From a virus, in the IMG/VR virus record IMGVR_UViG_3300010392_000309, positions 1 through 30,946 of that record: a DNA stretch of 30,946 nt. One strand, written 5' to 3'. Each line of letters begins with the position of its first letter. Position 1 is the first letter of the stretch. The notes below the pieces were generated by a model, which saw only the letters and a program-made list of their open reading frames with translations, was not told where the DNA came from and searched no databases. Shown here piece after piece: positions 831 through 3,896 of this stretch. The position numbers and the translations under genes are program-made.

Positions 831-847
831 AAAGGCGGTAACCAATG
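831..847 (+). promoter_or_regulatory. Repeated translation-start cassette, copy 1 (AAAGGCGGTAACCAATG)
   Basis: Ribosome-binding site plus ATG for the gene at 845. It shares 15 of 17 positions with the cassettes at 1187 and 1414. AAGGCGGT differs from the ideal AAGGAGGT by one base. The 14 nt from 832 to 845 are complementary to the terminator loop at 1735-1748 with one mismatch. Confidence 0.75.
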
Positions 848-1204
848 TCACAAAATACTCTAAACTACTTAATGTCAAAAAAAGTTCCAATGATGAGAAA
901 TACCAAGACTGGCGAATGGGCCAAGCTTAGTCTCACGTGCAAGGCAAACAACCATTACTATGCAAACGGAAAGAAGATTTGCATGAACATGGTTTATCAA
1001 TTAATCGGTGAAAACATGGTCGAGGGATTAGAGAAAGGCGTAATTAGTAAAGAAAAAAGAATAAAGTCACTAGATAATGCTGTTAAGGCGCTACAGGAGC
1101 TAATAGATAGTTATCCTATGAGCCGTGGAAAGTATGAAAAAATAGCAGCTGTAAGATCTTATTTAAGAACAGAATCAAGAAATTTAAAAGGCGGTAACAA
1201 ATGA
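845..1204 (+). CDS. Hypothetical protein with helical C-terminal half
   Basis: A 119-residue protein. The start at ATG 845 is chosen because the AAAGGCGGTAA cassette sits just upstream; an alternative in-frame ATG at 872 lacks one. Residues around 25-60 contain a short segment with two Cys (LTCKANNHYYANGKKICMN). The C-terminal half is rich in Lys, Glu and Leu and is probably helical (KEKRIKSLDNAVKALQELID). Its last codons, encoding KGGNK, double as the ribosome-binding site of the next gene, and the TGA overlaps the next ATG. Family not recognised. A competing frame (718-930) overlaps it but has no start signal. Confidence 0.65.
   Translation: MSQNTLNYLMSKKVPMMRNTKTGEWAKLSLTCKANNHYYANGKKICMNMVYQLIGENMVEGLEKGVISKEKRIKSLDNAVKALQELIDSYPMSRGKYEKIAAVRSYLRTESRNLKGGNK
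1187..1203 (+). promoter_or_regulatory. Repeated translation-start cassette, copy 2 (AAAGGCGGTAACAAATG)
   Basis: Ribosome-binding site plus ATG for the gene at 1201. Bases 1188-1201 (AAGGCGGTAACAAA) are the exact reverse complement of the terminator loop segment 1735-1748, reaching the first base of the start codon. It is encoded inside the last codons of the preceding gene. Confidence 0.8.
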
Positions 1205-1431
1205 ATCCAGTTCTAAAGCTCAGAAGAAATGAAATCAAAAAAATAGAAAAAAAATTAAAAGAAGAAATATTCTGGTCCGAACAATTAAGAGTTAACGACA
1301 GCAGAAAAGAAATAAGCAATTTTGCAAAGCAACAAATAAATGACCTTGAGCTTAACCTGGATTGCATGAAGAAAGAATATGAGTTTTTAAAAACTGAACT
1401 AAGAATATATAACAAAGGCGGTAAACAATGA
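1201..1431 (+). CDS. Small coiled-coil protein
   Basis: A 76-residue protein that is almost entirely charged and helical: NEIKKIEKKLKEEI, then a middle heptad-like stretch and MKKEYEFLKTELR. It is probably a coiled coil over residues 8-70. No enzyme motif is visible. The start is fixed by the second AAAGGCGGTAA cassette, and the ATG overlaps the upstream TGA. Its own last residues (NKGGKQ) encode the third cassette. Function unknown; a small regulatory or host-interacting protein is possible but is inference. Confidence 0.65.
   Translation: MNPVLKLRRNEIKKIEKKLKEEIFWSEQLRVNDSRKEISNFAKQQINDLELNLDCMKKEYEFLKTELRIYNKGGKQ
1414..1430 (+). promoter_or_regulatory. Repeated translation-start cassette, copy 3 (AAAGGCGGTAAACAATG)
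   Basis: Ribosome-binding site plus ATG for the gene at 1428. Ten consecutive bases (1415-1424, AAGGCGGTAA) are complementary to the terminator loop at 1739-1748. Two mismatches follow in the 14-nt window, or a single bulged A restores pairing for the next three bases. Confidence 0.75.
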
Positions 1432-1658
1432 TAGTTAAAAAAAGAACAATCAACAAAGCAGTGTTTTATTTAATGTTGATCGAGACCAGAGAGGGTTTTG
1501 ATTTTGTGGTGGACGGCCCTAATTGGTGTTCTGGCCATCTTAGGGCTCTTTATGAGTGGTCTGAGCCTGAGATTACAGAATACTTTGAAAAGGGTGATTT
1601 ATTAGCAGATGTTCAGAGCGCATGGGAAGCTCATTACGAGCGTATTATTGGATGTTGA
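1428..1658 (+). CDS. Small hypothetical protein
   Basis: A 76-residue acidic protein with mixed beta/alpha character (FYLMLIETREGFDFVVDG) and a conserved-looking segment with several Trp (PNWCSGHLRALYEWSEPE). It does not match a family I can name. The start uses the third AAAGGCGGTAA cassette. It is the last gene of the early-looking run that begins before the window. Its TGA stop (1656-1658) lies inside the -35 box of the promoter at 1655. Confidence 0.65.
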   Translation: MIVKKRTINKAVFYLMLIETREGFDFVVDGPNWCSGHLRALYEWSEPEITEYFEKGDLLADVQSAWEAHYERIIGC

Positions 1659-1682
1659 CTTTATTTTTGATAATACTATACT
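1655..1682 (+). promoter_or_regulatory. Sigma70-type promoter
   Basis: TTGACT (1655-1660) and TATACT (1677-1682) are separated by 16 bp. Each hexamer differs from consensus by one base (TTGACA, TATAAT). The predicted start is about 1689-1690, immediately 5' of a hairpin and 30-odd nt before a strong terminator. This is the best promoter match I saw in the window. Confidence 0.65.
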
Positions 1683-1688
1683 TCATTT

Positions 1689-1770
1689 AAGGGAGTAATC
1701 TCTTTAGTTGTATGGTTATAGCCCCACTAGTCTCTTTGTTACCGCCTTGAAACTAGTGGGGTTTCTTTTT
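1689..1770 (+). ncRNA. Candidate phage small RNA / attenuated leader with antisense terminator loop
   Basis: The predicted transcript is about 80 nt. It starts with a hairpin: AAGGGAG (1689-1695) against CTCTTT (1700-1705), with two G.U pairs and the loop TAAT. A single-stranded linker follows, then the terminator hairpin 1722-1761 and its T-run. The 20-nt terminator loop (1732-1751) holds TTTGTTACCGCCTT at 1735-1748. This is fully complementary to the ribosome-binding site of the gene at 1201 and nearly so to those at 845 and 1428. A 5' hairpin, an open seed region and an intrinsic terminator form the usual outline of bacterial trans-acting sRNAs. The alternative is a cis attenuator for the gene at 1780, or the 3' end of the upstream operon mRNA. 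The RNA itself is inferred. Confidence 0.6.
1722..1770 (+). terminator. Intrinsic terminator with 10-bp perfect stem
   Basis: CCCCACTAGT (1722-1731) pairs perfectly with ACTAGTGGGG (1752-1761) and is followed by TTTCTTTTT (1762-1770). The loop is unusually long at 20 nt and carries the antisense sequence described for the candidate RNA. It lies between the gene ending at 1658 and the GTG start at 1780. Confidence 0.85.
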
Positions 1771-1779
1771 GAGGGACGA

Positions 1780-2037
1780 GTGAAATATTTAAAAAGAAGA
1801 GAAGATCAAAACGGCAAGCTTATTGAGCATGATGAAAGGCAAGTGGACCTAAGCCAGTTTCCTGACTGGTATCAAGAATGGAGAGAGCTGCATGCAAGCG
1901 GTGACCTAGCTGGTGCAATGGAGCTACTTGCAGAGGTAGCAGTTGCAGAGCCTAAGAAAAGAAAAAGAGCTAAAAGAGTTAGAGGGCTAAATGCGCTAAG
2001 AAGAAAAGCCCTAGATGCTGCTAAAAAGTCTTGTTGA
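1780..2037 (+). CDS. Small basic-tailed hypothetical protein
   Basis: An 85-residue protein from GTG 1780. This start is chosen because GAGG (1771-1774) sits 5 nt upstream and because an upstream in-frame TTG at 1708 would force translation through the terminator hairpin. The N-terminal half is polar and acidic with Trp (FPDWYQEWRELHASGDL). The C-terminal third is strongly basic (KKRKRAKRVRG), which suggests nucleic-acid contact; this is inference. The gene sits 9 nt after the T-run, so any transcript from 1655 must read through the terminator to reach it. Its 3' end overlaps the convergent minus-strand gene by 17 bp. Confidence 0.6.
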   Translation: MKYLKRREDQNGKLIEHDERQVDLSQFPDWYQEWRELHASGDLAGAMELLAEVAVAEPKKRKRAKRVRGLNALRRKALDAAKKSC

Positions 2038-2374: not shown

Positions 2375-2411
2375 AAACCACAAATTAGGTTATATAAACC
2401 ACAAATTAGGT
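2375..2411. repeat. Tandem 16-bp direct repeat, 21-bp period (operator-like)
   Basis: AAACCACAAATTAGGT occurs at 2375-2390 and again, perfectly, at 2396-2411, separated by TATAT. The 21-bp period is two helical turns, so both copies face the same side of the DNA. Each copy contains a loose ACC-N8-GGT dyad. The pair lies in the divergent region between the minus-strand gene (start 2323) and the phosphoesterase (start 2426), which suits a repressor or activator site. Confidence 0.7.
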
Positions 2412-2425
2412 GCTTTGATAAGTGT

Positions 2426-3145
2426 GTGAAATATGAATCCATTATCTGCATATCGGACTTACAGATCCCTTTTCACCATCCAGATTCATTTGAATTTTTA
2501 CTCGCTATTAAAAAACGCTTTTGGATAAACAGTAAAAAGTCTTTATGTATTAACCAGGGTGATGAGGTTGATCAGTACAAGCTTAGTAAATACATAAGCA
2601 GTCCCGATGCTATGTCAGCAGGTATGGAATACACAGTAAGCTTAATGCACTTAAAAGAACTGTGGGATCTATTCCCAGAGCAGAAGATATGTATATCTAA
2701 TCACACATGGCGCATTTTTAATAAAGCAATGGCAGCAGGAATACCAAGAGCGTTCTTAAGAGAGATCAGTGACTTTATGCAAGCGCCTAAAGGTGTTGAG
2801 TGGAGACATAAGTGGAAAATAGACAACATTATATTTGAGCATGGAGAAAATGTATCAGGGCCTAACGCAGCTTTAAATGCTGCTATTCAAAACGGCATGT
2901 CAACATCAATCGGACATCAGCATACCTATGGCGGGATTAGCCACATAACAAGAGAAGCTGGTCCTATATGGGGCATGAATACAGGATGCTTAATAGACAT
3001 CAATCAATATGCATTTGACTACGCCAAGAAGGCCAGAAAAAAACCAACACTAGGCACAGGTGTTATCCTTTATGGTGTGCCTTATTTTATACCGATGATA
3101 TTGCTTAAAAATGGAAAATGGAATAAGAAAATACCATGGATTTAA
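2426..3145 (+). CDS. Calcineurin-like metallophosphoesterase
   Basis: A 239-residue protein with the ordered metal-ligand motifs of the calcineurin-like phosphoesterase superfamily. These are D11-x-Q13 (normally DxH), G45-D46-x2-D49, N92-H93, H139 in FEHGEN and G163-H164-x-H166. The family hydrolyses phosphomono- or diesters with two metal ions. Phage members are found near terminase genes and are thought to act on nucleic acid or nucleotides, but the substrate here is unknown. Gln in place of the first His is the only deviation among the ligands. The start is a GTG with a poor ribosome-binding site; no in-frame ATG gives an intact first motif. Its end overlaps the next gene by 10 bp. Confidence 0.85.
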   Translation: MKYESIICISDLQIPFHHPDSFEFLLAIKKRFWINSKKSLCINQGDEVDQYKLSKYISSPDAMSAGMEYTVSLMHLKELWDLFPEQKICISNHTWRIFNKAMAAGIPRAFLREISDFMQAPKGVEWRHKWKIDNIIFEHGENVSGPNAALNAAIQNGMSTSIGHQHTYGGISHITREAGPIWGMNTGCLIDINQYAFDYAKKARKKPTLGTGVILYGVPYFIPMILLKNGKWNKKIPWI

Positions 3146-3684
3146 TATACATAGAAAAAACAAAAGAAAAGTATAGGGACGGGACTTACCTTTCAAAATA
3201 TAAATGCTATTGTGGCAAGGAATTCTTAGCGCTTGATAGGAGCATAAGAAGTAAAAGGCTTAAGTCTTGTGGTTGCATGAGAGGATCAACTGCAGCAATG
3301 AGGGCAAGATGCAGAACTCCAGGCAATGCTCTTAAAGATCCAACGGAAAGCTCTTTAAATTCAGTTTATAATAACTATTATCATTCTGCTAAAAATAAAA
3401 AACTAGAGTTTAAAATAAGCAAAGAGTTTTTCAGAAATATAACTCAGCAGCATTGTTTCTACTGTGGTGAGCCACCATCAAATAAATGTAAATACTCTAA
3501 GTGGGCAAGGTCAGCTTATATATACAATGGAATAGACAGAGTTAATAGCTCTGTCGGTTATATAGAATCAAACTGCGTACCATGCTGTAAGAAGTGTAAT
3601 TATTTAAAATCAAACAGAAGTCAGGAAGACTTTATAAAACACTTACGAAGGATTGTAGAGTGGATAAAAAAATTGTCTATTTAG
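3136..3684 (+). CDS. HNH endonuclease
   Basis: A 182-residue protein with two zinc-binding parts. Residues 24-47 hold CYCG and SCGC, the small knuckle often seen at the N-terminus of phage homing-type nucleases. Residues 107-154 form the HNH region: C107-x2-C110, GIDRVNSSVGY (131-142), N146-C147-V148-P and C151-x2-C154. The GIDRVN...NCVPCCKKCN pattern is typical of HNH nucleases of mobile or phage type, whose first catalytic residue often departs from His. The gene sits upstream of the terminases, where HNH enzymes can assist packaging cleavage, but a free-standing homing nuclease is equally plausible. The start ATG lies inside the end of the phosphoesterase gene. Confidence 0.8.
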   Translation: MDLIYIEKTKEKYRDGTYLSKYKCYCGKEFLALDRSIRSKRLKSCGCMRGSTAAMRARCRTPGNALKDPTESSLNSVYNNYYHSAKNKKLEFKISKEFFRNITQQHCFYCGEPPSNKCKYSKWARSAYIYNGIDRVNSSVGYIESNCVPCCKKCNYLKSNRSQEDFIKHLRRIVEWIKKLSI

Positions 3685-3896
3685 AATGGGAAGATCCAGA
3701 GTCTCATGATGCATGGGAGGAGTGGGATAAGTTGCCTGATAAGTTAGAGCGGATATACTCCATTGGTTTTATCATTAAAGAAACTAAAGATATGTATGTG
3801 ATGGCTTTAAATGTAGATCCAAGAAACAAGACTGCATCTTGTACAATGTTAATACCAAAGAAACTTATATTAAAGAAAAGGACTATTAAAAGATGA
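3660..3896 (+). CDS. Small phage protein of unknown function
   Basis: A 78-residue protein from GTG 3660 with GAAGGA 7 nt upstream. It opens with VYLEWEDPESHDAWEEWD. It continues with a beta-rich YSIGFIIKETKDMYVMALNV and ends in a TMLIPKKLI strand. I recall this order (acidic Trp segment, [ST]-x-G-[FW]-[LI] strand, IPK near the C-terminus) from small proteins in many phages, all without known function. It overlaps the HNH gene by 25 bp and the next gene by 4 bp, so it is part of the same operon. Confidence 0.65.
   Translation: MDKKIVYLEWEDPESHDAWEEWDKLPDKLERIYSIGFIIKETKDMYVMALNVDPRNKTASCTMLIPKKLILKKRTIKR

Follow-up and report, generated by a model that had tools for sequence, protein, structure and literature searches.

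In a 30,946-base virus record, analysed at its full length and referred to here as the window, the loop of an intrinsic-terminator-like hairpin (1722-1770, + strand) is the exact antisense of the ribosome-binding site (RBS) of one small upstream gene and a near-exact antisense of the RBSs of its two neighbors. The explanation that best accommodates this arrangement, to which we give an even chance of being correct, is an antisense feedback element that would block translation initiation at three RBS cassettes shared by these genes. The complementarity, its placement, the sharing of the cassettes and the ranking of the targets can all be read from the sequence itself. The record carries genes of the TerL, major head, tape-measure and tail-fibre types, and a D5-like primase is additionally seen upstream in near-identical contigs.

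A putative small operon with repeated ribosome-binding sites and a terminator-like hairpin

Three small genes belonging to no known family follow one another on the + strand at the left end of the window, namely gene 845 (845..1204, 119 aa), gene 1201 (1201..1431, 76 aa, Lys/Glu-rich) and gene 1428 (1428..1658, 76 aa), and their order suggests that they form one transcription unit. A search across 84,980 prokaryote species returned no relatives of gene 845, and its single phage match is spurious, the matched frame reading like a phosphoglucomutase. Each of the three starts is preceded by AAAGGCGGTAA, and AAGGCGGTAA is absent from all other start regions among those listed. The resulting cassettes, all on the + strand, are AAGGCGGTAACCAA (cassette 1, 832..845), AAGGCGGTAACAAA (cassette 2, 1188..1201) and AAGGCGGTAAACAA (cassette 3, 1415..1428), and they carry a non-consensus GCGG in the Shine-Dalgarno (SD) sequence. 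Two of them double as C-terminal codons of the preceding gene, cassette 2 being encoded within the KGGNK-stop end of gene 845 and cassette 3 within the KGGKQ-stop end of gene 1201, with stop and start overlapping as ATGA, a feature that the earlier note had missed.

Beyond the last stop codon (1658) there follow a promoter match, a small hairpin (1689-1704) and the strong terminator-like hairpin, whose perfect 10-bp stem (CCCCACTAGT and ACTAGTGGGG, 1722-1761) encloses a 20-nt loop (CTCTTTGTTACCGCCTTGAA, 1732-1751) and is followed by the tail TTTCTTTTT. The region 1689-1770 is predicted to fold as RNA with -25.3 kcal/mol (z = -3.0), and the fold includes the small 5' hairpin with which, according to the earlier note, a transcript of about 80 nt would begin. 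Such a candidate antisense RNA (1687..1770, + strand) would consist of the 5' hairpin, a spacer and the terminator hairpin. As for its promoter, a sigma-70-like sequence TTGACT-16-TATACT is indeed present at 1655..1682 (+ strand, consensus match of 10/12, predicted start about 1688), as the same note had it, but matches of this quality are no rarer than chance over the surrounding 4 kb, where 10 promoter-like sites were found against 14.0 +/- 3.6 in shuffled sequence; in its immediate surroundings no other + strand site occurs, with 2 sites on both strands against 0.6 +/- 0.8 expected. A 12-codon ORF (MVIAPLVSLLPP, 1712-1750) also runs from an ATG at 1712 through the 5' stem arm to a stop in the loop; a ribosome on this ORF would block the hairpin, and its SD-like AAGGGAG (1689-1695) lies uncomfortably far upstream.

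Complementarity between the loop and the start regions

The claims from which this work set out, that the match is exact over 14 nt, that it lies wholly within the loop and that two further sites match less well, are all borne out: the loop seed TTTGTTACCGCCTT (1735..1748, + strand), which falls within the 20-nt loop at 1732-1751, is the reverse complement of 1188-1201 and ends at the first base of the gene 1201 start codon, while 832-845 has one mismatch to the loop and 1415-1428 has two. When pairing was scored against 42 phage start regions by accessibility-corrected energy, genes 1201, 1428 and 845 took ranks 1 to 3, with predicted net energies of -17.9, -13.4 and -11.5 kcal/mol, respectively, against -9.6 kcal/mol for the next start region; only 6 of 2000 shuffled loops matched the third-best energy. 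The proposal of a built-in specificity code is likewise upheld by the ranking, no capsid or tail gene with an SD of the AAGGAGG or AGGAGG type being found among the top 12. General anti-SD mimicry was considered as a source of the match and rejected: the loop matches the cassettes even in their non-consensus GCGG and runs on, past the anti-SD stretch, into TTGTTT, and a general anti-SD likeness is therefore no explanation.

How often such a match would arise by chance bears directly on the main competing explanation, which is that the hairpin is a plain terminator and that its match to the RBS is a coincidence, or an inverted local copy of the repeated cassette, with no regulatory function; we regard this as a real possibility, though one that is on balance unlikely. 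A match of at least 14 nt to any of 37 start regions has a probability of 1.2e-5 for 20-nt loops drawn from a second-order Markov model and of 2.7e-5 for permuted loops, that is, about 1-3e-5 per loop and about 1e-4 for the five terminators of the window before any wider post hoc correction. Among the window's 30,926 20-mers this site is the only one with a match of at least 14 nt to a start region, and in a survey of 2.56 Mb of phage and bacterial DNA, in which some 84 terminators had loops of at least 8 nt, it was the only such case, with 10 nt as the next-longest non-trivial match (rows of 19 and 12 nt in this survey are trivial, since each loop there lies across a start codon of the strand opposite to it). 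Conversely, exact 14-nt inverted repeats are not rare in this AT-rich window, which holds 8 of them against 2.7 expected, a count that favors coincidence; what is rare is the joint position of the repeat in a terminator loop and at a ribosome-binding site, not the inverted repeat itself. Short copying also seems to occur here, given three occurrences of the cassette within 600 bp, yet a copied segment would often run into the cassette flanks, whereas the similarity stops exactly at 14 nt. It must further be borne in mind that the finding was singled out by eye among many candidates, and that such a free scan for curiosities adds a look-elsewhere factor in favor of coincidence.

Relatives were sought with the proteins of genes 845, 1428 and 1780, with the phosphoesterase of gene 2426, with that of a 250-aa gene ending at window position 333 and, in viral contigs, with TerL. 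The locus recurs at 99.9% identity in three further contigs, which come from separate metagenomes, and the eight differences in 6.2 kb (seven in gene 1428, at 1454-1506, and one at 3883) spare hairpin and cassettes altogether but are too few to bear on constraint. No diverged relative carrying the locus was found by the five-protein and TerL searches, every carrier being 99.9% identical, so that there is no conservation signal to count against coincidence. More distant relatives (L128, L129, L136-L140 and L307) share other genes, with identities of 51% for the phosphoesterase, 51-55% for TerL and 32% for the 250-aa left-arm gene, and in the stretches of them that were read the locus and a comparable hairpin are absent. 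Scans for the loop motif in viral and genome collections gave at least 120 stretches in one case and 112 and 53 in the others, and among the matches listed from viral contigs TTACCGCC occurs in a terminator loop in this phage species only. Separately, a contig of an uncultured Clostridia (L288, near the motif match at 1896-1941, - strand) holds TTGTTACCGCCTT in a strong hairpin (-22 kcal/mol), which is smaller than that of the phage and in which GCCTT belongs to the stem. The differences within gene 1428 are themselves peculiar in that seven of the eight that separate the window from contigs L002 and L003 are packed into 53 bp and are lacking in L004, as if this segment had come from recombination or were under special change.

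The gene behind the hairpin and further alternatives

Directly behind the U-tract of the hairpin lies a gene that the earlier note had missed, gene 1780 (1780..2037, + strand, 85 codons, GTG start), recognized from the sequence and its codon score; its SD sequence GAGGGA (1771-1776) begins one base past the U-tract. With 0.28 it has the highest codon score among the seven tests listed (frame +2, -0.92), and no relatives of it were found outside the near-identical copies. There is no room for a promoter between the hairpin and this SD, so gene 1780 needs readthrough of the terminator; being transcribed through the hairpin, it would make the latter a leader element as well, with termination that must be partial or controlled, and the hairpin may accordingly be an attenuator in addition to forming a 3' end. 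One may thus suppose that the emerging loop is bound, and the terminator disturbed, by a free upstream RBS located on the same nascent mRNA or on a second copy of the RNA, in which case readthrough into gene 1780 would report how busy the RBSs of the operon are. The good coding statistics of a gene that depends on readthrough speak for attenuation, and RBS and loop (a predicted duplex of -23.6 kcal/mol) could pair while the 3' stem arm is still to be synthesized. On the other side, the antisense segment lies wholly in the loop with no stem overlap, so that the hairpin may well survive pairing; the analysis identified no antiterminator helix as an alternative fold; and a leaky terminator would be enough for gene 1780. 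Altogether, we consider attenuation improbable, though a rival to be reckoned with.

Two further readings fare worse. Host genes are the targets of many known phage sRNAs, an example being the action of PreS on dnaN (PMC12197685), and the loop might by analogy be the seed of a trans-acting RNA with host mRNAs as its important targets and the phage RBS match as a secondary matter; this we judge to be very unlikely, given that the loop matches the phage's own cassettes perfectly, down to their unusual GCGG. That the shared 14-mer, present in both orientations, serves a phage protein as a DNA-level operator is the least credible reading, for although four copies lie within 920 bp and hardly any elsewhere (other AAGGCGG matches falling in coding sequence), three of them stand exactly at RBS spacing, two encode the C-termini KGGNK and KGGKQ, and the motif has no dyad symmetry.

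Proposed antisense feedback and its precedents

We infer from the arrangement described above a course of transcription, termination, release and pairing in vivo with a negative effect on translation. In such a feedback circuit, hairpin 1722-1770 would end the transcript of the small operon (genes 845, 1201 and 1428), and its exposed 20-nt loop would seed antisense pairing with the RBS cassette common to the three genes. The RNA might be the 3' end of the operon mRNA freed by cleavage, an independent RNA of about 80 nt from the 1655-1682 promoter, or both. The loop would pair over 10-14 bp with AAGGCGGUAA(C)AA, thereby covering the SD sequence and the start codon; a 14-bp duplex within a closed loop of 20 nt would be sterically strained, and fewer pairs may therefore form. 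Such pairing would lower translation of the operon, and of gene 1201 most strongly, amounting to negative feedback from the product side.

By analogy, each part and step of this proposed mechanism has an experimental precedent in c4, OppZ/CarZ, RepG or LhrC. One of these is c4 of phages P1 and P7, an RNA from its target's own transcription unit whose loops are complementary to sequence at the ribosome-binding site and which blocks translation (PMC12197685, PMC5320573). In the present phage, too, RNA and target appear from gene order to share one unit and the loop is complementary to the RBS; however, c4 has about 77 nt and three stem-loops, is made by RNase P and pairs via two separate loops, whereas here a single terminator loop covers the whole RBS and the target is common to three genes. 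Rfam's C4 covariance model finds no match at E <= 10 in 1600-1850, and at Rfam's cutoffs no family matches the locus.

In Vibrio cholerae, OppZ and CarZ are RNAs from the 3' end of an operon that carry a Rho-independent terminator and pair with a start region inside their own operon (PMC7398697), and the placement found here is of this type, with the gene 1428 stop at 1658, the hairpin at 1722-1770 and the targets at 832-845, 1188-1201 and 1415-1428. OppZ, which RNase E sets free and which works with Hfq, targets a single internal gene, whereas the phage element would have its seed in the terminator loop itself and three repeated cassettes as its targets. A terminator loop serves as the antisense seed in RepG of Helicobacter pylori (PMC8295292), and in LhrC of Listeria monocytogenes loops that include the terminator loop pair with the SD region of lapB (PMC4132741); complementarity and predicted energies would fit a seed of this kind in the phage. 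RepG differs in being chromosomal and trans-encoded, with a C/U-rich loop directed at a G-repeat in a leader, and LhrC in carrying a general UCCC-type anti-SD seed in three places, as opposed to the one long, target-specific seed of the phage, which matches a non-consensus SD.

CopA of IncFII plasmids shares with the candidate RNA a two-hairpin antisense architecture of 80-92 nt, and the likeness is one of architecture only. Aligned end to end with the CopA family (RF00042), the candidate RNA scores 30.2 bits against a gathering cutoff of 60, and homology was rejected on the ground that 28 control terminators matched assorted families equally well below threshold. Moreover, CopA is cis-encoded, on the strand opposite to that of its target leader, whereas the complementary RBSs of the phage lie on the same strand, 300-900 nt upstream, and the perfect target is 550 nt away.

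Possible implications and further observations

If the mechanism is real, its new element is the matched pair of an altered SD and an altered anti-SD common to three genes, a pair that would separate the targets within the operon from ordinary AGGAGG genes. A phage operon would then switch itself off via the loop of its own terminator, providing a compact and transferable example of RNA-based operon feedback in a virus whose host is uncultured. More cases might then be found cheaply by comparing the terminator loops of phages with the start regions of the same genomes. A more far-reaching version would see here a private anti-SD system, in which an altered SD cassette (AAGGCGGUAAC) common to the three genes is matched by an altered anti-SD in the operon's terminator, the terminator being at once a 3' end, a feedback repressor of the cassette regulon and an attenuator of the next gene; we put this forward with considerable reserve and think it rather improbable.

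Two minor observations concern the neighborhood of the locus. A tandem direct repeat AAACCACAAATTAGGT, with copies at 2375 and 2396 (window 2375-2410), lies upstream of the phosphoesterase gene, and an Endonuclease VII/HNH-like gene at window 3136-3684 has further matches to the PHROG families that go by the names Srd anti-sigma factor and decoy of host sigma70.
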